From: an uncultured Methylococcales bacterium
GTDB lineage: Bacteria; Pseudomonadota; Gammaproteobacteria; Methylococcales; Methylomonadaceae
Length of the DNA: 33,572 bases
Assembly (NCBI GenBank): GCA_903902705.1
Contig: CAIUVX010000021.1
Span: 1-33,572, forward strand
Reading direction: 5' to 3'
In this document: positions 9,249 through 29,587 of the stretch, one piece after another
Numbering within the stretch: position 1 is the first letter of the stretch
Layout: each line of letters opens with the position of its first letter
Notes under the pieces: generated by a model
What the model was told of the DNA's origin: nothing
Databases searched by the model: none
Seen by the model: only the letters and a program-made list of their open reading frames with translations
Position numbers and translations under genes: made by a program

Positions 9249-11396
9249 TCAAAAGTTCACGCTCGCTTCAAGGTAAAAAAGCCTACCTGACATTGGAATA
9301 TTTTGTGGTAATGACGCTGGTGATCCAACAGATTCAAGATTATTTTTAGCATCCAATAGATTGCGTACCGATGCACTGACATTCAAATGATCAAATAATT
9401 TTTTACCTCTTAACGTTAAATCAACAGTTTCATAATCTTTCAACGGTCTATTATCAGTTAACGCAGGTATACGACCACCAACCCAGTTAATTTGTGGCTG
9501 TAATTGCCATTGCGGCAAAAATTGCCAGCTGACAGCGGTGTAAATATGATGCTCAGGAACATAAGTAACACGCGTGTGCGTTTGTTCGTTAGTGGCACGT
9601 TGCCACGCATAATTACCTATAACACTCCACTGCTCACTGGCTTGCCAGTTCCATTCAAACTCACCACCATAGCCTTTTTGATTACCGCTATTTTGAAAAG
9701 TAGCCGATGGTTTTCCGACATCGGGTACAGCAGCAATCAGGTCTTGAATCTGATAGTAATACACGTTGACAGCCGTCCGTAGTGATTTAACAGGACGGTA
9801 ATCAACTGCCCATTCAAAGGTATTAATTGTTTCAGGCTTCAAATTTTTATTTCCCAGTAATACTGGGTTGTTTTGATTGCCTTGTTCTGAAAAGCTAGGG
9901 GCTCTAAAGGCTTTGCCATACAGCAATTTGGTGGTGAGTTGTTTATTAATATCCCACACTAACGCTGCGCGTGGATTAAAAGTGCTACCAAAATCCGAAT
10001 AATTGTCATAACGCAAACCTGCCGTCAATTGCCAATTATCCGCAAACTGCCATTCATCTTGCAAAACACCTGAGAAGATGGAACGATGAATATTGGCTAA
10101 ATAAACATAAGGGGTATTGGTCACATCGGTCAATGCACCGCTAATTATTGGCGGCGGCGATGTGCCATTAACGACTCCAGAACCATAATTTTTGCCTTCT
10201 TTGGTGCTAATTTGCTCATAGCGATAAGCCGTGCTGAACCGTAATGAATGGTTATCCCATCCTTTATAAATTGCGCCCAATTCCATAGATGGTACTTGCT
10301 CTATACGCCCTAAATCAGTTCTCACACCAGCAGGAAACAAGGTTCTCGGTAAGTTGGGATTTAAGCTACTACTGATGTTACCATCAGCAGCGATGGGCAA
10401 TTGAGCGTTGTCAGCAAAAAGCTGAAGTTGGGTATCAAAACCAGCATATAAATAACTAAGATGCGCGGTCAACTCCAAGTCTTTTAACCAATCTTCAGTG
10501 GAAAAATGCACATCGCCTAGATACTGTTGACTATTGGTATAGCTATTCGGTTCTAATACAGTCCCAGCACCCGCACGAGTTCCCGTATTCAAGGCACTAA
10601 ACGACCAAAAATCAATATCCCAATGTTTGCGCTGTAAGTTAAGGTGGGCATCTATGCTTTCATAGCGACCTTGATAGCTACCTGGTGCGTGTGAAGCATT
10701 CGTGCCAAATGCCTTATCTTTGGCGGTTTGAAAATCAGCCTTAATGATTCTGTCAGGATCGCCATCAGTGTGCTGATATTGCAAACTAGTGGCAATATCC
10801 CATCCAGCCCACTGCGCACTGTGCTGTCCCCAGCCACTTTGAGTATTCGCATCACCTGCACGAACACCCAGTTTTGTGCCATTAATGTCTTTAGCTTTTT
10901 TGGTGATAATATTGATTACACCTGCAAACGCATCCGCGCCATACAAGGCAGAACCAGGTCCTCGAATCACCTCCACTCGCGCAATCGCTTCCAATGGTAA
11001 TTCAAAATGCGATAGGGTATTACCGCGAAATGGCGTATTAATGCGCGTGCCGTTGACCATCATCAACAATTCTGAATTAGTGGCGTTGCGTATGCCGCGC
11101 AGACTGTAACTGTAATCATAAGTGCTGCTTTGTAAACTAGCATGAATCCCTGGCACAGTTTCCAGCACTTCATGTAGCTCAGTCGCCCCCATCGATTTAA
11201 TCTGCTCAGCGGTAACAATACTGGTCACCGCAGCGGACTGAAATACGGTCTTGGGTGTCCCTGTCGCAATGCTTGTTTGGGCTAATTCAGCGGGCGACAT
11301 ATTAAAAGGATCAATATCCGCTGCTATTGCTTGAGTTACTGGAAAGCAAGCAACAGCGACTAAATGTCGAATGAAGTAGGCGCATTTAATGTTCAT
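9249..11396 (-). CDS. TonB-dependent outer-membrane receptor
   Basis: The protein is an outer-membrane beta-barrel importer driven by TonB-ExbBD. The 715-aa precursor has a signal peptide ending near AIA (25-26). A plug domain (about 45-155) follows with typical blocks: IVTAEQIKSMGATELHEVLE, RGIRNATNS and EVIRGPGSALYGADAFAGVINIIT. The long barrel has alternating aromatic strands, the GKAFRAPSF motif and a terminal aromatic residue (final F). The substrate cannot be read from sequence. Its start overlaps the end of the GGDEF/EAL gene by 4 nt (ATGA), so the two are translationally coupled within the yfiR-like operon. This suggests the receptor takes part in, or is governed by, cyclic-di-GMP signalling. 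Vitamin, siderophore or other ligands are all possible. Confidence 0.9.
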   Translation of the reverse strand: MNIKCAYFIRHLVAVACFPVTQAIAADIDPFNMSPAELAQTSIATGTPKTVFQSAAVTSIVTAEQIKSMGATELHEVLETVPGIHASLQSSTYDYSYSLRGIRNATNSELLMMVNGTRINTPFRGNTLSHFELPLEAIARVEVIRGPGSALYGADAFAGVINIITKKAKDINGTKLGVRAGDANTQSGWGQHSAQWAGWDIATSLQYQHTDGDPDRIIKADFQTAKDKAFGTNASHAPGSYQGRYESIDAHLNLQRKHWDIDFWSFSALNTGTRAGAGTVLEPNSYTNSQQYLGDVHFSTEDWLKDLELTAHLSYLYAGFDTQLQLFADNAQLPIAADGNISSSLNPNLPRTLFPAGVRTDLGRIEQVPSMELGAIYKGWDNHSLRFSTAYRYEQISTKEGKNYGSGVVNGTSPPPIISGALTDVTNTPYVYLANIHRSIFSGVLQDEWQFADNWQLTAGLRYDNYSDFGSTFNPRAALVWDINKQLTTKLLYGKAFRAPSFSEQGNQNNPVLLGNKNLKPETINTFEWAVDYRPVKSLRTAVNVYYYQIQDLIAAVPDVGKPSATFQNSGNQKGYGGEFEWNWQASEQWSVIGNYAWQRATNEQTHTRVTYVPEHHIYTAVSWQFLPQWQLQPQINWVGGRIPALTDNRPLKDYETVDLTLRGKKLFDHLNVSASVRNLLDAKNNLESVGSPASLPQNIPMSGRLFYLEASVNF

Positions 11397-13795
11397 ATTG
11401 GTGCAATCATAAAAGGTTTTATCAGTTTAAGTTCCGTCAATAACACAGGTTTACTGATGCCATAGCCTTGCGCATAATCGACACCTAATTCATTAAGCAA
11501 ATTAAATATTTCCTCATTTTCAACAAATTCGGCAATGGTTTTTTTACCCATAACGTGTCCAACTTCGTTGATCGCTTTTACCATCGCTAGGTCTACTTTA
11601 TCATCTAAAATATCTTTAACAAAAAAACCATCGATTTTAAGATAGTCCACGGGTAGATTTTTTAAATAGGCAAAAGACGATAGACCACTGCCAAAATCAT
11701 CCAGTGAAAAGGAACAGCCCTGCTCTTTTAATAAATTAATAAATTTAATTGCCGATGATAAATTAGCAATCGCAGCGGTTTCAGTGACTTCAAAACATAT
11801 TTTCTGAGTAGGTATTTGCCACTTAGCAAATTGCTCAAAGATGAAGGCTAACACCCCTTCATCACCCAATGATAAGCCCGATAAATTAATAGAACACAAT
11901 GACAAATTTTCCATAAAATCAGGTGTTGTGGCAATAAACTCAAAAACAGAGCCGATAACCCAGCGATCTATCGCGGGAGCTAAACCATAACGCTCTGCCG
12001 CTGGTAAAAACGCATTAGGCGGTATAATACGACCGCTCTCATCGCGATAGCGAATCAGAGTTTCAAAATGCAGTCTTTCATCTTCTTTGGATACCAATAC
12101 GATTGGCTGCCCATACAGGCAAAAACTATTATTCTCTAGTCCTAGCCGTATTTTTTCCACCCACTGCATTTCGCCTTCTCTTAGCGCGAGTTCTTCATCA
12201 TCTGGGCTATAAATATGAATGCGATTGCGCCCTTTATCTTTTGCCGCATAACAAGCGGCATCGGCTTCTTTAAATAAATTGACCGCACTGCCACTGGTTT
12301 TATTGATGACAGAAAGCCCTATACTGACACCTATGGAAAAGTTTTTTCCTTCCCAATGAAAACGAAAATCCCTGATAGTATCGCGTAGCTTTTCACACAG
12401 TAAAAACGCGTCATTCAGTGAACAGTAATACATCAATATGCCAAATTCATCACCGCCTAAACGAGCGATAAAGTCCTGCTCTCGAATGTGTGTTTTTAAT
12501 ACCAAGCCTAATTGTCTTAACAGTTCATCACCCGCAAGATGCCCACAGGTGTCGTTGACCAGTTTAAACTGATCCAAATCTAAATAACACAAGACGTGTT
12601 CAGAATCATCAGTGTGGACTAATTCTATTGCTTGTTTAACGTAACGATCAAACTCAACTCGATTAGCAAGCCCTGTTAACGCATCATGGCTGGCTTGGTA
12701 GGTGATTGTTTCACTCAACTCACGCGCTTCAGTGACATCTTCACACACCAATAACAAGCTGTTTTTTTGCTGCCCATATTCAACAGATTTAGCGGTGACT
12801 CGTAGCCAAAGAATTTGCCCATCCGCGCCTATTTGCCTAAATTCCTCTTTGTATGCGTGGGTAGGATTAAGCAGACAACGCTCAAGAAAAGAACTCATAA
12901 TAGGTATATCAGCGGTATAAATAAAATCAAAAATGCAATGATTACGCAACTCTTTAATGCTTAAACCAATTTGATCGGCACAAGTACGATTAACTGACAA
13001 AATATTGCCCACAGCGTTGACGCTAAACATCATTGAAGGATTATCGTCATACAACGAGACATAACGATTCTTTGCATCCAGTACCGCTACATTTTGCTGT
13101 TCCACAGTATCAATCAACTCATTAAACGCATTCACTAACACGCCTAACTCGTCATTATTGACTTTAACGGCGCGTATCGAATAATCATGACTCGCACTAA
13201 TTGCCTTAGCCGCTGCCACCAATTTATTGATGGGGGCTGAAATGAGCTTTAATAACGGAGTAGCTAAAAGAAAAGCCAGTATCGACACACTGAGTAATAC
13301 TAAAAATAAAAAACCGATAAACTGTATTTTACGCCAGTAAGCAGCAGAAAAATCGGCGTGAATATAAACCGTTCCTTGTTGCTCTGACTCCATCATAATC
13401 GGCTGCACAATACATAAATGGGTATTGGTAAATTGGGTTGCCAATCCATTAACCAACGTAGGACACGTCCATTTATTCTGATTGGGTTTGATTAATTCGG
13501 CAAAAACAACCCCTTCCTGATTATAAAGACAAGCGGCTTGCACTTCTGGCAACATAGCAATCACCGCAAGATTTTCTCGCGCTGTTTCTTGGTCATTAAA
13601 TAATAGCGCGGCCGTGCTACGATTACCGATGATGGTTGCTACTGCTGACAAATCATCTTGGGTATTTTTCTGAAATTCATCGATTTCAAGTATCAATATA
13701 AATATACCCGCCACTATTAATGACAACACGCTAGGAAATATGGTAATTAATAGTAGCTTACGGTTTATTGCTAAATCAGCGATGCGTTTAATCAT
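11393..13795 (-). CDS. CHASE8-HAMP-PAS-GGDEF-EAL cyclic-di-GMP enzyme (YfiN-like sensor)
   Basis: This is an inner-membrane hybrid enzyme for cyclic-di-GMP. Membrane segments lie at about 14-38 and 157-181 and flank a periplasmic CHASE8-like sensor. HAMP (about 181-235), PAS (240-357), GGDEF (368-530) and EAL (545-790) follow. GGDEF is intact (447-451) and has an RxxD inhibitory site (438-441). The EAL signature reads ETL (578-580), while the other phosphodiesterase motifs (NLSG, EVTE, DDFGSG, QGY) look intact, so both activities are plausible. The ATG at 13795 is chosen over an upstream TTG at 13822 because GGAG sits 6 nt before it. It overlaps the yfiR stop by 8 nt. In Pseudomonas, periplasmic YfiR inhibits YfiN through this type of sensor. 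Confidence 0.9.
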   Translation of the reverse strand: MIKRIADLAINRKLLLITIFPSVLSLIVAGIFILILEIDEFQKNTQDDLSAVATIIGNRSTAALLFNDQETARENLAVIAMLPEVQAACLYNQEGVVFAELIKPNQNKWTCPTLVNGLATQFTNTHLCIVQPIMMESEQQGTVYIHADFSAAYWRKIQFIGFLFLVLLSVSILAFLLATPLLKLISAPINKLVAAAKAISASHDYSIRAVKVNNDELGVLVNAFNELIDTVEQQNVAVLDAKNRYVSLYDDNPSMMFSVNAVGNILSVNRTCADQIGLSIKELRNHCIFDFIYTADIPIMSSFLERCLLNPTHAYKEEFRQIGADGQILWLRVTAKSVEYGQQKNSLLLVCEDVTEARELSETITYQASHDALTGLANRVEFDRYVKQAIELVHTDDSEHVLCYLDLDQFKLVNDTCGHLAGDELLRQLGLVLKTHIREQDFIARLGGDEFGILMYYCSLNDAFLLCEKLRDTIRDFRFHWEGKNFSIGVSIGLSVINKTSGSAVNLFKEADAACYAAKDKGRNRIHIYSPDDEELALREGEMQWVEKIRLGLENNSFCLYGQPIVLVSKEDERLHFETLIRYRDESGRIIPPNAFLPAAERYGLAPAIDRWVIGSVFEFIATTPDFMENLSLCSINLSGLSLGDEGVLAFIFEQFAKWQIPTQKICFEVTETAAIANLSSAIKFINLLKEQGCSFSLDDFGSGLSSFAYLKNLPVDYLKIDGFFVKDILDDKVDLAMVKAINEVGHVMGKKTIAEFVENEEIFNLLNELGVDYAQGYGISKPVLLTELKLIKPFMIAPI

Positions 13796-14318
13796 GGCGG
13801 TCTCCCCCAGCAATCTCAACAACTTCCAATAATTTCGCGCTGATTTTTAAACCGTTTTGTTGTAGCAATTTTAGATTTATCTGCAATTTTATTTTGTCTT
13901 GCCGCTTAACAAAGGCAATCATGCCACCTTGGCTAATAAACTCAGGTTCTTCGCCAACCGTTAAGGTGTTTTTGCTACTCGCCGCTATGATTTTAGCATT
14001 GACATTTAACCCCACATAAACAATATGACAATGCACGGCTTTATCCATCACCGTTAATCTGAACAATTTGATAGGTAAATTAAAAGCGGTTCGCTGTTCA
14101 ATGGGGTCAATAATTTCACCAAAAGGATCATTACCCAAAATGCAAATATTGAAGGTCTCAGTAGTTTCTTCAGTCCAAGTAATAAATTTAGTGAAGTTAA
14201 ACAAGTAGCCCACTTTGATTTTATATTCATCAACGGGTGCAGATTCTGCGTAAGAATCCTGCAAAAACAGCGAACACAGTAAACAACATAAAACTAAAAT
14301 CGAACAAATACTTTTCAT
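13788..14318 (-). CDS. yfiR: YfiR family (DUF4154) periplasmic regulator
   Basis: The 176-aa protein has a Sec signal peptide (hydrophobic 5-20, cleavage near YAES at 24-26) and the DUF4154 core: YKIKVGYLFNFTKFITW, then FNICILGNDPFG, a central CHIVYVG strand, and a late GGMIAFVKRQDKIKLQINL block. In Pseudomonas YfiBNR, YfiR binds the periplasmic domain of the diguanylate cyclase YfiN and represses it. Here it precedes and overlaps a CHASE8-GGDEF-EAL gene by 8 nt, which supports the same partnership. No YfiB-type OmpA lipoprotein is nearby. A TonB receptor occupies the third position instead. Confidence 0.88.
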   Translation of the reverse strand: MKSICSILVLCCLLCSLFLQDSYAESAPVDEYKIKVGYLFNFTKFITWTEETTETFNICILGNDPFGEIIDPIEQRTAFNLPIKLFRLTVMDKAVHCHIVYVGLNVNAKIIAASSKNTLTVGEEPEFISQGGMIAFVKRQDKIKLQINLKLLQQNGLKISAKLLEVVEIAGGDRHD

Positions 14319-14495: not shown

Positions 14496-15794
14496 CTATT
14501 CCGCAAAAAATTGGCGCATCGCTCTTATCATATAGTGATGATCCCACACACCCGCACTTTCTCGAATACTGTGCATCGCCCACAGTGGAGATCCCACATC
14601 AACGCAGCTTACCCCGATTAAACTAGAAGTAATCGGTCCTATGGTGCTACCACAACCCAACTCATTACGATGGGAATATTTTTGATAGGGTACGCCTGCT
14701 AATTCACAGCAATCTGCAAATAATGCCTCTGAACCACTGCTGGTACTGTAACGCTGATTGGCATTAACTTTTATAACGGGACCTTGATTAACCAGCACTT
14801 TATGTTCTGAATCATAAGCAGCGGGGAAACTGGGTTGATAGGCGTGCGCCATATCCGCGCTAATCATAAAACTTTTTGCCAATGCTCTTAAAAAGTCTTC
14901 TCGATCGGTTTTTGTCGCTAAGGCAATACGTTCAAGAATATCAGTAAGAAAACTACCCGCCGCGCCTTTTTGACTTTCACTACCGATTTCTTCGTGGTCA
15001 AAAAAGGCACACACTAGCATATTGCCTGATTCCAAGACGCTCTCATCCAATAATGCCAATAAAGCTGCATGACAGGACGCTAAATTGTCCAGTTGACTAT
15101 TCGCATAAAACTCATTGTTTGCCCCCCAAAACACCCCTTGTTGAGTGTCATACACTGCCAAATCCCAAGACAATATGGATTCTATCTCTTTATCTATTTG
15201 CTGCTGTAACCAGTCAGAAAAATACGCACAGGGTAATTGTTGCTCGGTTAAGCGCGTCAAAATTAAGGGTAATTCCTGCTGTTTATGCAGTTTTAAACCC
15301 TCTTCATTGACGGTTCTGTTCATGTGTATGGCTAGATTAGGTAGTCGTAGCAAGGGTTTATCACACTGCACTAACTGGCTCACCAGCTTACCGTGTTCAT
15401 CCTTATAACAAATTCGCCCAGCAAGACTTAAATCCCTATCGGCAAAGGTTGCGAGTATGGGACTGCCGTAGATTTCAACACCTAAACGTAATAATCCATC
15501 GCTTGCTGTTGCGGGATTGGGTTTAATGCGCAACCCAGGTGAATCGGTATGCGCACCAATGAGTTTAAAGCCTGTTTTTACTAAAGGCTGTTGCCCCATT
15601 ACGAAGATAATAATAGAGGAATCATCACGAATGACATAATAACGCCCCCCTGCTTGTAAGCTCCATTTGTCAGTTTCATTGAGCTTTACAAATGAAAACG
15701 CGCTCAGTTGGGTTTCAATGCTATCAACCACATGCCAAGGGCTGGGGCTTGCATCAATAAAATCCAGTAAATATTGAACCTGTTGCGTTGCCAT
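14496..15794 (-). CDS. apeB: M18 family aminopeptidase (aspartyl aminopeptidase type)
   Basis: This cytosolic dizinc aminopeptidase removes N-terminal residues, typically acidic ones. In the 432-aa protein, metal-binding and catalytic blocks appear in order: AHTDSPG (H82), SQLDNLASCH (D234), FDHEEIGS (E266, E267) and AMHSIRE (H408). GCGSTIGPI, a family signature, lies near 380. Length is normal for bacterial M18. The ATG at 15794 has no strong Shine-Dalgarno. It lies 41 bp downstream of the FAD oxidoreductase gene on the same strand and may be cotranscribed with it. The 177-bp gap before yfiR contains a long hairpin, so the signalling operon may be separate. Confidence 0.92.
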   Translation of the reverse strand: MATQQVQYLLDFIDASPSPWHVVDSIETQLSAFSFVKLNETDKWSLQAGGRYYVIRDDSSIIIFVMGQQPLVKTGFKLIGAHTDSPGLRIKPNPATASDGLLRLGVEIYGSPILATFADRDLSLAGRICYKDEHGKLVSQLVQCDKPLLRLPNLAIHMNRTVNEEGLKLHKQQELPLILTRLTEQQLPCAYFSDWLQQQIDKEIESILSWDLAVYDTQQGVFWGANNEFYANSQLDNLASCHAALLALLDESVLESGNMLVCAFFDHEEIGSESQKGAAGSFLTDILERIALATKTDREDFLRALAKSFMISADMAHAYQPSFPAAYDSEHKVLVNQGPVIKVNANQRYSTSSGSEALFADCCELAGVPYQKYSHRNELGCGSTIGPITSSLIGVSCVDVGSPLWAMHSIRESAGVWDHHYMIRAMRQFFAE

Positions 15795-25871: not shown

Positions 25872-28235
25872 TTAAAGTTTAATAATTGACCACATCACTT
25901 TTTTACTGCCCTCTGTGGGGTGTTGTTTTATTTTGTTCATGCTTTGTAATTCAGTCAGTAATTTCATTAATTCATTGCGTGATTTATGCCCACTAAACAA
26001 TTTACTAATCTCAGTCTGTGACCTATCCTTTTCAGCTAACGCACTCAGTAATTTATCCGCGTCCGTTCCTGTATCAAGTGAGGGTACTGTGAAAATATAC
26101 TGCACTGATTTACGGCAAAATTCGACTACATGACACGCTGCCTCAATGTGTCGCTGTTCAATCGTAGGTAAGCAATCCAGCAAACAAAACAGCAAGCTTA
26201 GACGCATTACATACGCTTCTGAACGTGCAGTAACTGAACCTAATACACCCTGCTCATCTTTGCTCACTTCGTGATATTTAGTCTCCCAGTAAGCCCGTGC
26301 ATCGGTTGATAGCGTTATTTCACTATCGCCATTTGATAGTCTTACCGCTTCTGCTAATCGTTCAGCTAATACTTTTACTTTGTCATCATTCATAGGCAAT
26401 GGAAACGCTAGTTTTTTGGTTCGTCTAACGCACGTCCACAAAAAACGATTAGCTAAGCCGTTATAAATGTCTGAATTACTCATGAGTGCGCTTAGTTCAC
26501 AGTGGGTAATGTGTCCTAATACATTGATATGCGGGTTTGTGGCTACCAGCTTATTGCTTTTAGTCATGGGGGCTAGTGTTCCACCGTCCCACGCCCTGCG
26601 TAGTGTTGCGCTTAATGTATTACCATCACGTTGGCACTGTTTTAAGGCATTGCCGAACTCTTCCTCTACCACTAACAGCCGCTTGTCATTTACAGCGCAC
26701 CATGCGGGGTTGTTGCTTCTGTCTAGCTCTTCTGATTCGTCTCTAACCTGAAAAATTAAACCCTCTGCACTGGATAACCCACCAGTGGCAAAATTTAGAC
26801 TTTCAACTAATGACAGATAGCTTTCACATTCTCGAATAATGCGCACAACAGGTTTAAAACTTGTCCCTTTTCTGGCGCGTGAACTTGCACCCACTAACGC
26901 ACAAAACAATCTAGCAAAGTGTTTTGATTCGCCAATTCGTAAAAACTTATCCCTGCCAAGTAATGCAGAACAGGCGCATAAAAAGCTCATGTACACCGCC
27001 ATTCTGTCCGCTTCACTATGTTCTATTGCTAATGCCGATAATTCACTGGCTATGCCGTAATAATGAGCATCATTGAATGTAGGATAATCGAACGCTAAAG
27101 CGGTATTTTCAAGCTCTTCTGTGTCGGTGTTATCACCTGCGCTGCTTTGCTTTTCAGAACCGCCGCTGTTTTGCGCTTTTTCTTTGGCATGAATGCGCTG
27201 ATTATGTTTAGTCAGTTCAGCATCAAAATCGAGGGCTGTTTTTAAATCACCGCCACATTCCAGCAATTTGTAACAGTCGAAAGCATCATGCGCAAAACCA
27301 TCATTCAACTTGTCTCCACCATGCGAATAAACGCGCTCTATGCCGTCTTTGCAGTTAATGCATAGCTTTGTAGCGGGTATGCCGCTATCGCTGTTAGGTC
27401 GTAAATACGCGCCTTTTTTGAGGGTGTAGCCATTGCGAATAAGCACATCATGCACCCTAAAAGACTGGTTAAATTCTTTAATCGGATTGCGCCGCCCGTT
27501 AGTCTCATTAATCGGCTGTTTGGGTTTTAGTGGCGGTGGTTCTGTCGGTTCTGGCTGTGGATTGTTTTTTAACCAGTCTTGTGTGGTTGCATCAGCATTG
27601 AGGTTTTCACCTTTAGCGTGTTGGAAAAACTCGAACAAATTTAACCGCGCTTGATCTGGTACGCGGGGAAAATACCACGCCTGAGACCATGTTCTATTTT
27701 CCTTAACATCGGCTAACATCACGCCGTTATTGTGCAGTTGCTCAAATATCCAATTGAGCAAAAAAGGCAATTGTTCACGGGTGTATGTGCAGGGAATAAT
27801 TACACGGTATTTGTGATAATCCACGCCATACAACCCACCACTATTAAAAATCTGTGCGGGCTGGGTGTCGGTGACTGGTTTATCTTTCGCGTGTAGCTCC
27901 TCATACGTTGCCCCATTGCTAAAGCTTGAATAAATTAGGTGATTAATCCCTAAATCGCTTAAAACAATGTGGACTAAATCAGGCGATACCGCGCCGCTTA
28001 TTATTTCACCTGTGTCTGTATCGATACGGCTATCACCGTCCAATATCAAAATAGATGCCGTGTCGCTGGTTTCGTTATTGGTGCGTTTAGTACCTGAACA
28101 GCGGATAAAATAATTACCGTCTTTTTTACCAATAGCAGGCACAGATAGTCTGGTTAATAATTCTGTGAATGTGGGTGTGTATGGTGTCAGGTCTGGATTA
28201 TTTGCCTGTTTGCCAGTGGCTAATAATAGCTTCAT
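25872..28235 (-). CDS. Primase-like / DUF3987 replication ATPase of the element
   Basis: This 787-aa protein probably initiates replication of the element. The N-terminal third resembles a primase-polymerase type domain: an acidic ILILDGDSRID (62-72), YSSFSN (102-107) and HKYRVIIP (141-148). A proline-rich linker (228-242) and a middle segment with CINC (292-295) follow. The C-terminal half matches DUF3987: a P-loop-like GASSRARKGTS (449-459) lacking the canonical GKS/T, the GLSSAEGLIFQVRDE motif (487-501), and a Walker-B-like VVEEEFG (522-528). A winged-helix-like tail ends it. Its start overlaps the HTH gene by 4 nt. The primase assignment is tentative; DUF3987 is firmer. Confidence 0.8.
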   Translation of the reverse strand: MKLLLATGKQANNPDLTPYTPTFTELLTRLSVPAIGKKDGNYFIRCSGTKRTNNETSDTASILILDGDSRIDTDTGEIISGAVSPDLVHIVLSDLGINHLIYSSFSNGATYEELHAKDKPVTDTQPAQIFNSGGLYGVDYHKYRVIIPCTYTREQLPFLLNWIFEQLHNNGVMLADVKENRTWSQAWYFPRVPDQARLNLFEFFQHAKGENLNADATTQDWLKNNPQPEPTEPPPLKPKQPINETNGRRNPIKEFNQSFRVHDVLIRNGYTLKKGAYLRPNSDSGIPATKLCINCKDGIERVYSHGGDKLNDGFAHDAFDCYKLLECGGDLKTALDFDAELTKHNQRIHAKEKAQNSGGSEKQSSAGDNTDTEELENTALAFDYPTFNDAHYYGIASELSALAIEHSEADRMAVYMSFLCACSALLGRDKFLRIGESKHFARLFCALVGASSRARKGTSFKPVVRIIRECESYLSLVESLNFATGGLSSAEGLIFQVRDESEELDRSNNPAWCAVNDKRLLVVEEEFGNALKQCQRDGNTLSATLRRAWDGGTLAPMTKSNKLVATNPHINVLGHITHCELSALMSNSDIYNGLANRFLWTCVRRTKKLAFPLPMNDDKVKVLAERLAEAVRLSNGDSEITLSTDARAYWETKYHEVSKDEQGVLGSVTARSEAYVMRLSLLFCLLDCLPTIEQRHIEAACHVVEFCRKSVQYIFTVPSLDTGTDADKLLSALAEKDRSQTEISKLFSGHKSRNELMKLLTELQSMNKIKQHPTEGSKKVMWSIIKL

Positions 28236-28933: not shown

Positions 28934-29587
28934 TTATTCCTTAAATTGCTTTAAAGCCTTACCAAGCCGTCTGTTAAAAGATGCAAACTTAGCATCATCA
29001 TCACCAAAAAGTTTTTGAGCTATTGGCAATATATCCTTAGAAATAGCACTGGCGTTTGGTTTATCGCCTGTTCTATATTTGTGTAATTGATTAGAAAGAA
29101 GTAACGCCATAATAGCGAGTGCTTTATCAGCGTTCATTTCTGCTATTTCACCGCCGTCTGTTTTTACAGTCTCTTTTTTTGATAGCCGCGCCACGTCCTC
29201 AGCCGAAACATACTTATTAATATTTTTAAAAGGCACTGGGTCTTTTAATTGAGTTGCAATCGCCTCACAAGCTGGGTAGTCTGGGTTTACGAGTTCACAT
29301 AATTTAGCGTCACGATTGTTGCAATATCTTTGAATTGTCTCAACTGGTATTTGATATGGCTTTGTAATGGTGAATGATTGTGCGCTGATAAGTTGACGAT
29401 ATTTATCCATAGATCCAAAGTTATCAGTCTCGTAGTCTATATCAAATTCAATTACACGAGCTTCAGTTCCATTCTCTATAAAAAAAAGCGGTAGCTTACC
29501 CTCAGCCGCTAGATAGATTAAAAGTTCTTTTGAATAGCCAGTTTTTTCAGCCGCTATCGCTAACGGGTAATGCTCAAGTTCTATCAT
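28934..29587 (-). CDS. Element protein of unknown function (217 aa)
   Basis: I do not recognise a family. The N-terminal YPLAIAAEKTGYSKELLIYLAAEGKLPLFF looks like a MerR/excisionase-type helix-turn-helix (residues 7-36), a layout seen in some phage-borne regulators. The rest is charged and without membrane segments, with a C-terminal helical part (ALAIMALLLSNQLHKYRTG, later KFASFNRRLGKALKQFKE). A GGAG sits 6 nt before the ATG. It lies between integrase and alpA, all leftward, with a structured 61-nt patch upstream. A regulator of lysogeny or excision is plausible but inferred only from fold resemblance and position. Confidence 0.65.
   Translation of the reverse strand: MIELEHYPLAIAAEKTGYSKELLIYLAAEGKLPLFFIENGTEARVIEFDIDYETDNFGSMDKYRQLISAQSFTITKPYQIPVETIQRYCNNRDAKLCELVNPDYPACEAIATQLKDPVPFKNINKYVSAEDVARLSKKETVKTDGGEIAEMNADKALAIMALLLSNQLHKYRTGDKPNASAISKDILPIAQKLFGDDDAKFASFNRRLGKALKQFKE

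Follow-up and report, generated by a model that had tools for sequence, protein, structure and literature searches.

What do YfiR systems sense when they have no YfiB? In the YfiBNR systems, YfiR represses the transducer and an outer-membrane partner relieves this repression. The question is raised by a locus on a 33,572-nucleotide (nt) contig of an uncultured, methane-oxidising Methylococcales bacterium (GenBank assembly GCA_903902705.1, contig CAIUVX010000021.1; this whole stretch is called the window below), in which three overlapping genes on the minus strand encode, in this order, a YfiR-family protein, a CHASE8-HAMP-PAS-GGDEF-EAL protein and a TonB-dependent receptor (TBDR). From sequence comparison across several genome samples, we consider it fairly probable that this operon specifies a trans-envelope signalling module, in which the TBDR would replace YfiB as the outer-membrane input to YfiR and a short tail of the receptor would make the contact, the tail being the less sure part of this reading. 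The elements of the operon are as follows.

13788..14318, minus strand: YfiR-family periplasmic protein (DUF4154), 176 amino acids (aa), with an N-terminal signal-like helix; assigned by Pfam
13788..13795, minus strand: overlap of the YfiR and CHASE8 genes, 8 nt
11393..13795, minus strand: inner-membrane transducer with CHASE8, HAMP, PAS, GGDEF and EAL domains, 800 aa; assigned by Pfam
13598..13612, minus strand: AALLF stretch, CHASE8 domain residues 62-66; read from the sequence
11393..11396, minus strand: overlap of the CHASE8 and TBDR genes, 4 nt (ATGA)
9249..11396, minus strand: TBDR of the outer membrane, plug and barrel, 715 aa; assigned by Pfam, no STN domain reported
11274..11315, minus strand: TBDR tail motif IDPFNMSPAELAQT, residues 28-41; matrix score 14.7, threshold 10.75

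The overlaps of 8 nt and 4 nt that an initial annotation had described between the three genes were confirmed (13788-13795 and 11393-11396). The start of the CHASE8 gene was placed at the ATG at 13795, with GGGGGAG just 5' of it; the mechanically called open reading frame (ORF) begins earlier, with TTG at 13822. The Pfam assignments were based on scores of 126.6 bits for DUF4154 'YfiR/HmsC-like' (cut-off 24.9), 61.8 for CHASE8, 137.9 for GGDEF and 215.3 for EAL, and for the TBDR of 151.5 for the barrel and 77.5 for the plug. The genome of the window contains one YfiR gene and 13 plug-domain proteins.

The window is no oddity in its pairing of YfiR with a TBDR. A TBDR gene on the same strand within 3.5 kb of the YfiR gene was found for 61 of 71 YfiR genes among relatives (window included), for 41 of 49 on named contigs with a YfiR resembling that of the window, for 42 of 51 in a phylum-wide sample and for 27 of 41 in a class survey that was fetched after the profiles and the motif matrix described below had been made. 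By arithmetic from genomes of 4.7 and 4.9 Mb with 22 and 27 plug genes, about 3% would be expected by chance; the linkage lies far above this, so the pairing is not due to chance, and the TBDR-linked YfiR is the majority form in all four samples. The initial annotation had beforehand made its proposal depend on conserved linkage in relatives, and such linkage was found, in several families and gene orders.

The relatives sample was derived from 61 genomes, 36 of them with YfiR, which gave 75 matches and 69 fetched regions (G014:C109 and G005:C137, the latter partial, were left out); two weak fragments, in L025 and L026, were not counted, which left 71 YfiR genes including that of the window. 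The named-contig sample comprised 60 loci, of which 11 were removed as duplicates of earlier ones. For the phylum-wide sample, YfiR was present in 39 of 150 genomes, with 57 matches and 54 fetched regions (G066:C1:1970384, G204:C173 and G000 were left out); L265 and L266 held no YfiR by profile and the fusion L264 was set aside because of its low score, and 51 genes were counted. In the class survey, YfiR was present in 44 of 276 genomes and 40 regions from 39 genomes were used, the window's own genome, G250, G289, G338 and G460 being left out.

Gene order is variable. With R for YfiR, N for the CHASE8 protein and T for the TBDR, the orders R-N-T, T-R-N, R-T-N and N-T-R were all found, and the three-gene set recurs in Methylococcaceae and in other families with differing gene order and output domain; the order R-N-T with a GGDEF-EAL output is the Methylococcaceae form, present for example in Methylomonas koyamae or M. 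methanica (L120, L118 or L112) and in Methylomonas sp. LW13 (L113). Because the three genes are kept together in permuted orders, a functional relation is favoured over a frozen neighbourhood. The receptor gene may also lie on the other strand: an opposite-strand TBDR with the tail motif stands within 340 nt of YfiR in L058, L127 and L282, and of the 14 class-survey YfiR genes without a same-strand TBDR, 4 are accompanied by an opposite-strand one that bears the motif. On G009:C84 (L012 and L195), four tandem motif-bearing TBDRs precede one YfiR and one large CHASE8-kinase-GGDEF-EAL protein, an arrangement of many receptors with one adaptor.

Pairing was also assessed by partner matching in 14 genomes with at least two complete sets, where the locus picked by YfiR similarity was compared with the locus picked by similarity of the partner and the outcome was set against within-genome shuffles. 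YfiR and the TBDR pointed to the same locus in 604 of 1164 comparisons, compared with 481 +/- 25 after shuffling (0 of 500 shuffles as high), and the known pair of YfiR and CHASE8 gave 644 compared with 487 +/- 39. The comparisons overlap and are therefore support for, and not proof of, a YfiR-TBDR pairing.

The claim that YfiB is missing from the operon and that a TBDR stands in its place was borne out for the window and for 144 of 144 TBDR-linked loci. No YfiB/OmpA match was found on the same strand within 4.5 kb of the window operon, and a profile that had been built up from the L248 OmpA protein found such a gene at none of the 144 TBDR-linked loci and at 2 of 27 others. L248 provides the contrast, with genes for YfiR, CHASE8-GGDEF and OmpA and no TBDR.

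A candidate docking site for YfiR was found in the receptor tail, just after the likely end of the signal peptide and before the plug. It reads xDDFFAMSPAELAATPVTIATG in receptors of the window's type and xLSVEDLLNVEVTSVAKK in others, and it precedes what we take, from alignment, to be the TonB-box position. To score the motif, a matrix of 14 positions was built from 133 linked TBDRs, none of them from the six genomes kept as controls. Its commonest residues are approximately E-D-L-L-D-L-S-L-E-E-L-M-N-V, with leucine at the eleventh position in 94%, and the background is about 5e-5 per position. In the six genomes, for which the best-scoring 73 of 106 plug hits were used, the motif was above threshold in 15 of the 16 TBDRs lying at most 10 kb from YfiR, compared with 3 of the 57 others (Fisher p 8.5e-12). 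In the class survey it was present in 24 of 26 distinct linked TBDRs; for this survey 60 residues before the plug were scanned, compared with about 45 earlier, and both TBDRs of L296 were counted once, which gives 24/26 instead of 26/28. The matrix was adopted after the result of a first regular expression had been seen, and the later-fetched class survey serves as a check. That expression was too strict, as it matched 69 of 133 independent linked TBDRs and, in the six genomes, 5 of 16 linked compared with 2 of 57 unlinked ones (p 0.0046), and it was discarded.

In the AlphaFold model of the window TBDR (pLDDT 86.3) the tail is poorly ordered, as expected of a docking peptide, with pLDDT below 50 at residues 1-33 and 36-38, and the plug and the barrel are mostly well predicted. 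The nearest Foldseek matches of the model were Fiu, Cir, BtuB and PfeA, siderophore and B12 receptors in general, and no ligand is claimed from them. Pfam reported no STN domain in this TBDR or in six others (L287, L291, L020, L064, L272 and L244). Just past the motif, at about the TonB-box position, the window TBDR is two residues shorter than that of L007 (AQTSIATG versus AQTSVSIATG). A resemblance between YfiB and the TBDR tail, consisting of L-[ST]-x-x-Q-I-A near the N-terminus of the L248 YfiB-like protein and of YfiB of Pseudomonas aeruginosa, was also considered; on the TBDR matrix the L248 protein scored -2.7 (P about 0.005 per position and about 0.1 over the tail), and the resemblance was dropped as being at chance level.

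The YfiR of the window is a genuine member of its family by sequence and by fold. The top 15 Foldseek matches of its AlphaFold model (pLDDT 86.9) were all chains of YfiR entries (4yn7, E 1.3e-7), and a profile built on 84 YfiR rows retrieved P. aeruginosa YfiR 4yn7 from the PDB (1.4e-14), whereas a PDB search with the single window sequence gave no YfiR match; a phage collection searched for YfiR gave no match either. Cys59 and Cys97 are conserved in at least 90% of the 84 rows. Their partners in the alignment are the first and second cysteines of P. aeruginosa YfiR, which by their order are Cys71 and Cys110, a pair named in PMC4655355. For the second pair of that protein (Cys145/Cys152), alignment and profile gave no counterpart in the window YfiR.

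In the transducer, AALLF corresponds to a stretch of P. aeruginosa YfiN, AAVVF, that is predicted to bind YfiR (PMC3375315). A loose pattern for an AAVVF-like stretch matched 93 of 132 CHASE8 proteins linked to a TBDR and 14 of 22 without such a link, and many of the misses look conservative. GGDEF, the I-site and four EAL-domain signatures are intact in 52 of 52 proteins of the window's type, and a fifth signature, DDFGxG, in 51 of 52, so that the window transducer has the intact signatures of a putative bifunctional cyclic-di-GMP cyclase/phosphodiesterase. The exception, L113 of Methylomonas sp. LW13, has NDFGSG in its EAL domain, which may weaken its phosphodiesterase activity.

Outputs differ between loci. 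Cyclic-di-GMP enzymes stand beside a TBDR and YfiR also in other gene orders, at L255 (N-T-R, GGDEF), L263 (T-R-N, GGDEF) and L278 (T-R-N, GGDEF-EAL), and further ones were found at L291, L292, L297 and L311 (L291 and L311 by Pfam); kinases are the output at most other loci. In the window's genus, L008 encodes a protein of 1,818 residues with CHASE8, HAMP, kinase, three receivers, Hpt, PAS, GGDEF and EAL behind a TBDR and YfiR. In two natural fusions, L264 and L287, YfiR stands in front of a kinase. The L287 fusion has no CHASE8, and a motif-bearing TBDR lies 21 nt away, which speaks for YfiR as the partner of the receptor. At L322 and L323, YfiR is immediately preceded by a histidine-kinase gene, and neither CHASE8 nor a TBDR was matched within 5 kb.

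The neighbouring genes could be co-regulated only, the TBDR being a target of, or co-expressed with, YfiR and the CHASE8 protein and sending no signal, with YfiR sensing otherwise, for example redox state through its cysteines. The conserved pair C59 and C97 would suit this, as would the suggestion in PMC3375315 that YfiR itself is a possible direct input, such as a redox sensor, and the 13 internal class-survey loci without a same-strand TBDR. The explanation is nevertheless improbable in our view, given that the TBDR is retained when the gene order is permuted, when it lies on the opposite strand and when YfiR is fused to a kinase, and that the tail motif is typical of linked TBDRs.

The proposal of the initial annotation that the TBDR reports to cyclic-di-GMP through YfiR is thus supported in part: linkage, the absence of YfiB and the tail motif as a physical candidate speak for it. 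The outer-membrane TBDR would be the input, YfiR the periplasmic go-between and the CHASE8 protein the inner-membrane transducer, which would make and/or degrade cyclic-di-GMP. The short disordered tail, presumably the mature N-terminus of the receptor ahead of the TonB-box position, may dock YfiR, and ligand binding or the pull of TonB on the receptor may alter the availability of this tail. YfiR would then be divided between the tail and CHASE8 and would so switch the enzyme. If the module works like YfiBNR, the cyclase would be held back by YfiR and released by the receptor; the sign may differ for a GGDEF-EAL protein. On the comparative side, the module is supported by gene kinds that stay together in many families and changing orders, a conserved YfiR and CHASE8 stretch, retained catalytic signatures and the absence of YfiB where a TBDR is present.

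Several observations weigh against this signalling module. In the four samples, a same-strand TBDR gene is lacking within 3.5 kb of 10 of 71, 8 of 49, 9 of 51 and 14 of 41 YfiR genes, some of them at contig ends, so that a TBDR is not obligatory. The L264 fusion has no TBDR close by, and L127, one of the 2 among 27 loci with a same-strand OmpA gene, has this gene in addition to its opposite-strand motif-bearing TBDR. Within the window's genus, the coding sequence for the CHASE8 protein falls into several frames at L004, and the L002 protein has been reduced to 250 aa, owing to decay or assembly error. The motif was missing from 1 of 16, 2 of 85 and 2 of 26 linked TBDRs in three sets, and homologues of the linked controls were included in the training set of the matrix. 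Conversely, motif-bearing TBDRs without a YfiR gene within 10 kb were found at L185 (G009:C83), L170 (G034) and L193 (G015); these are possible sensors using a YfiR encoded elsewhere. The motif also partly marks a TBDR subfamily: on a tree of the barrels it needs 6 changes, and independent pairs were in favour of the association with linkage in about 4.5 of 8 cases and never against it (median p 0.125, not significant). The YfiR fold, finally, is similar to substrate-binding proteins as well (6k1x, E 3.9e-5, Foldseek).

The clustering of the motif on the barrel tree and the non-significant paired test would also fit a tail that serves another partner, such as a particular TonB, an assembly factor or peptidoglycan, and that marks a TBDR subfamily standing beside YfiR by happenstance. 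Linkage, with 9 changes on the same tree, shows that the linked TBDRs are not one clade, and within genomes the motif tracks YfiR linkage (15/16 versus 3/57); this explanation is hence considered very improbable.

The fold similarity bears on the main rival, in which YfiR is a ligand-binding protein supplied through the receptor. Here the TBDR would import the ligand, YfiR would bind it in the periplasm in the manner of a small binding protein and the loaded YfiR would act on CHASE8, so that the receptor would serve for entry only and make no contact, an arrangement that we take to be like that of LuxP-LuxQ. The position of one YfiR behind four tandem TBDRs on G009:C84 speaks for it, as do the two fusions, which place YfiR at the sensor-domain position of a kinase. 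It leaves the special periplasmic tail of the YfiR-adjacent TBDRs unexplained, and we rate it as unlikely, although it is the strongest of the alternatives.

A wider reading, for which the chances seem to us about even, is a second, STN-independent form of TBDR signalling. A disordered N-terminal tail (about D-L-x-x-[LM]-S-[LI]-E-E-L) ahead of the TonB box would dock YfiR, which would act on CHASE8 with swappable outputs, either cyclic-di-GMP enzymes or hybrid kinases. Within a larger family, the usual outer-membrane partner would be a receptor and the YfiB form would make up a single branch, and the tail would predict sensor receptors, including those without an adjacent YfiR gene.

With the YfiBNR system of Pseudomonas and Escherichia coli (AwsXRO, TpbB), the window operon shares the YfiR family and fold, a CHASE8-HAMP transducer with GGDEF, the AAxxF stretch and the first cysteine pair; it differs in having a TBDR instead of a YfiB/OmpA lipoprotein, additional PAS and EAL domains and no counterpart of Cys145/Cys152. 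In a search started from Pseudomonas, Malone et al. (2012; PMC3375315) arrived at a count of 99 complete yfiBNR operons in 144 genomes, whereas our species-level samples contain few YfiB-bearing loci; in the same study, operons distant from Pseudomonas were almost all without yfiB and varied in output. The three kinds of partner also occur in an NCBIfam set, composed of TOL_0243 YfiR-like (NF053591), TOL_0244 TBDR (NF053590) and 'sensor histidine kinase, YfiR-like protein-associated' (NF053592). Its output is a kinase, which is absent from the window operon, and the window proteins remain below its cut-offs (YfiR 93.8 vs 125, TBDR 156 vs 645, transducer N-terminus 190.7 vs 194). L267 passes the cut-offs of NF053591 and NF053590; with these families in existence, the kinase version has thus already been seen by curators.

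As in signalling of the FecA-FecR-FecI type, the TBDR is proposed to report to a periplasmic partner and thence to the cell interior. In contrast to that type, the window TBDR has no reported STN domain, the adaptor is YfiR and the output is a cyclic-di-GMP enzyme instead of an anti-sigma/sigma pair; no anti-sigma or sigma factor genes were found among the 10 window proteins scanned by Pfam, the neighbours having been scanned in part. A hint that such receptors can sense comes from TOL_0244 of Thalassolituus oleivorans, which names the NCBIfam TBDR family, and from OmpS of Alcanivorax dieselolei, both TBDRs linked to alkane detection or uptake. In PMC6304351, TOL_0244 is reported to be up sevenfold on the n-C28 alkane and to be 40.3% similar to OmpS, and OmpS to be essential for alkane detection and to trigger a chemotaxis response. 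No result shows an alkane to be the ligand of the window TBDR.

Keyword searches of open-licence literature gave, among the matches listed, no paper joining YfiR to TBDRs. None of the papers using both YfiR and TonB words connects the two in the text available, 'yfir' and 'tonb' do not occur in PMC8846402, and 'tonb' does not occur in PMC3375315. The NCBIfam set of YfiR, TBDR and kinase was known before; the short pre-plug tail motif on YfiR-linked TBDRs is new. With most sampled YfiR genes adjoining a motif-marked TBDR, the question of what YfiB-less YfiR systems sense becomes testable. If the proposal is true, the occupancy of nutrient receptors would be tied to the cyclic-di-GMP control of biofilm and motility, and the tail motif would be a sequence mark for sensing receptors without an STN domain.

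Elsewhere in the window, the ORFs at 25872-28235 (787 aa) and 28934-29587 (217 aa) had no Pfam match at E 0.001. Directly upstream of the operon and on the same strand lies an M18 aminopeptidase gene (14496-15794). This neighbour is synteny information only and gives no pointer to the ligand of the TBDR; its place is kept in 49 of 57 loci of the window's type, which suggests that the locus is old and vertically inherited.

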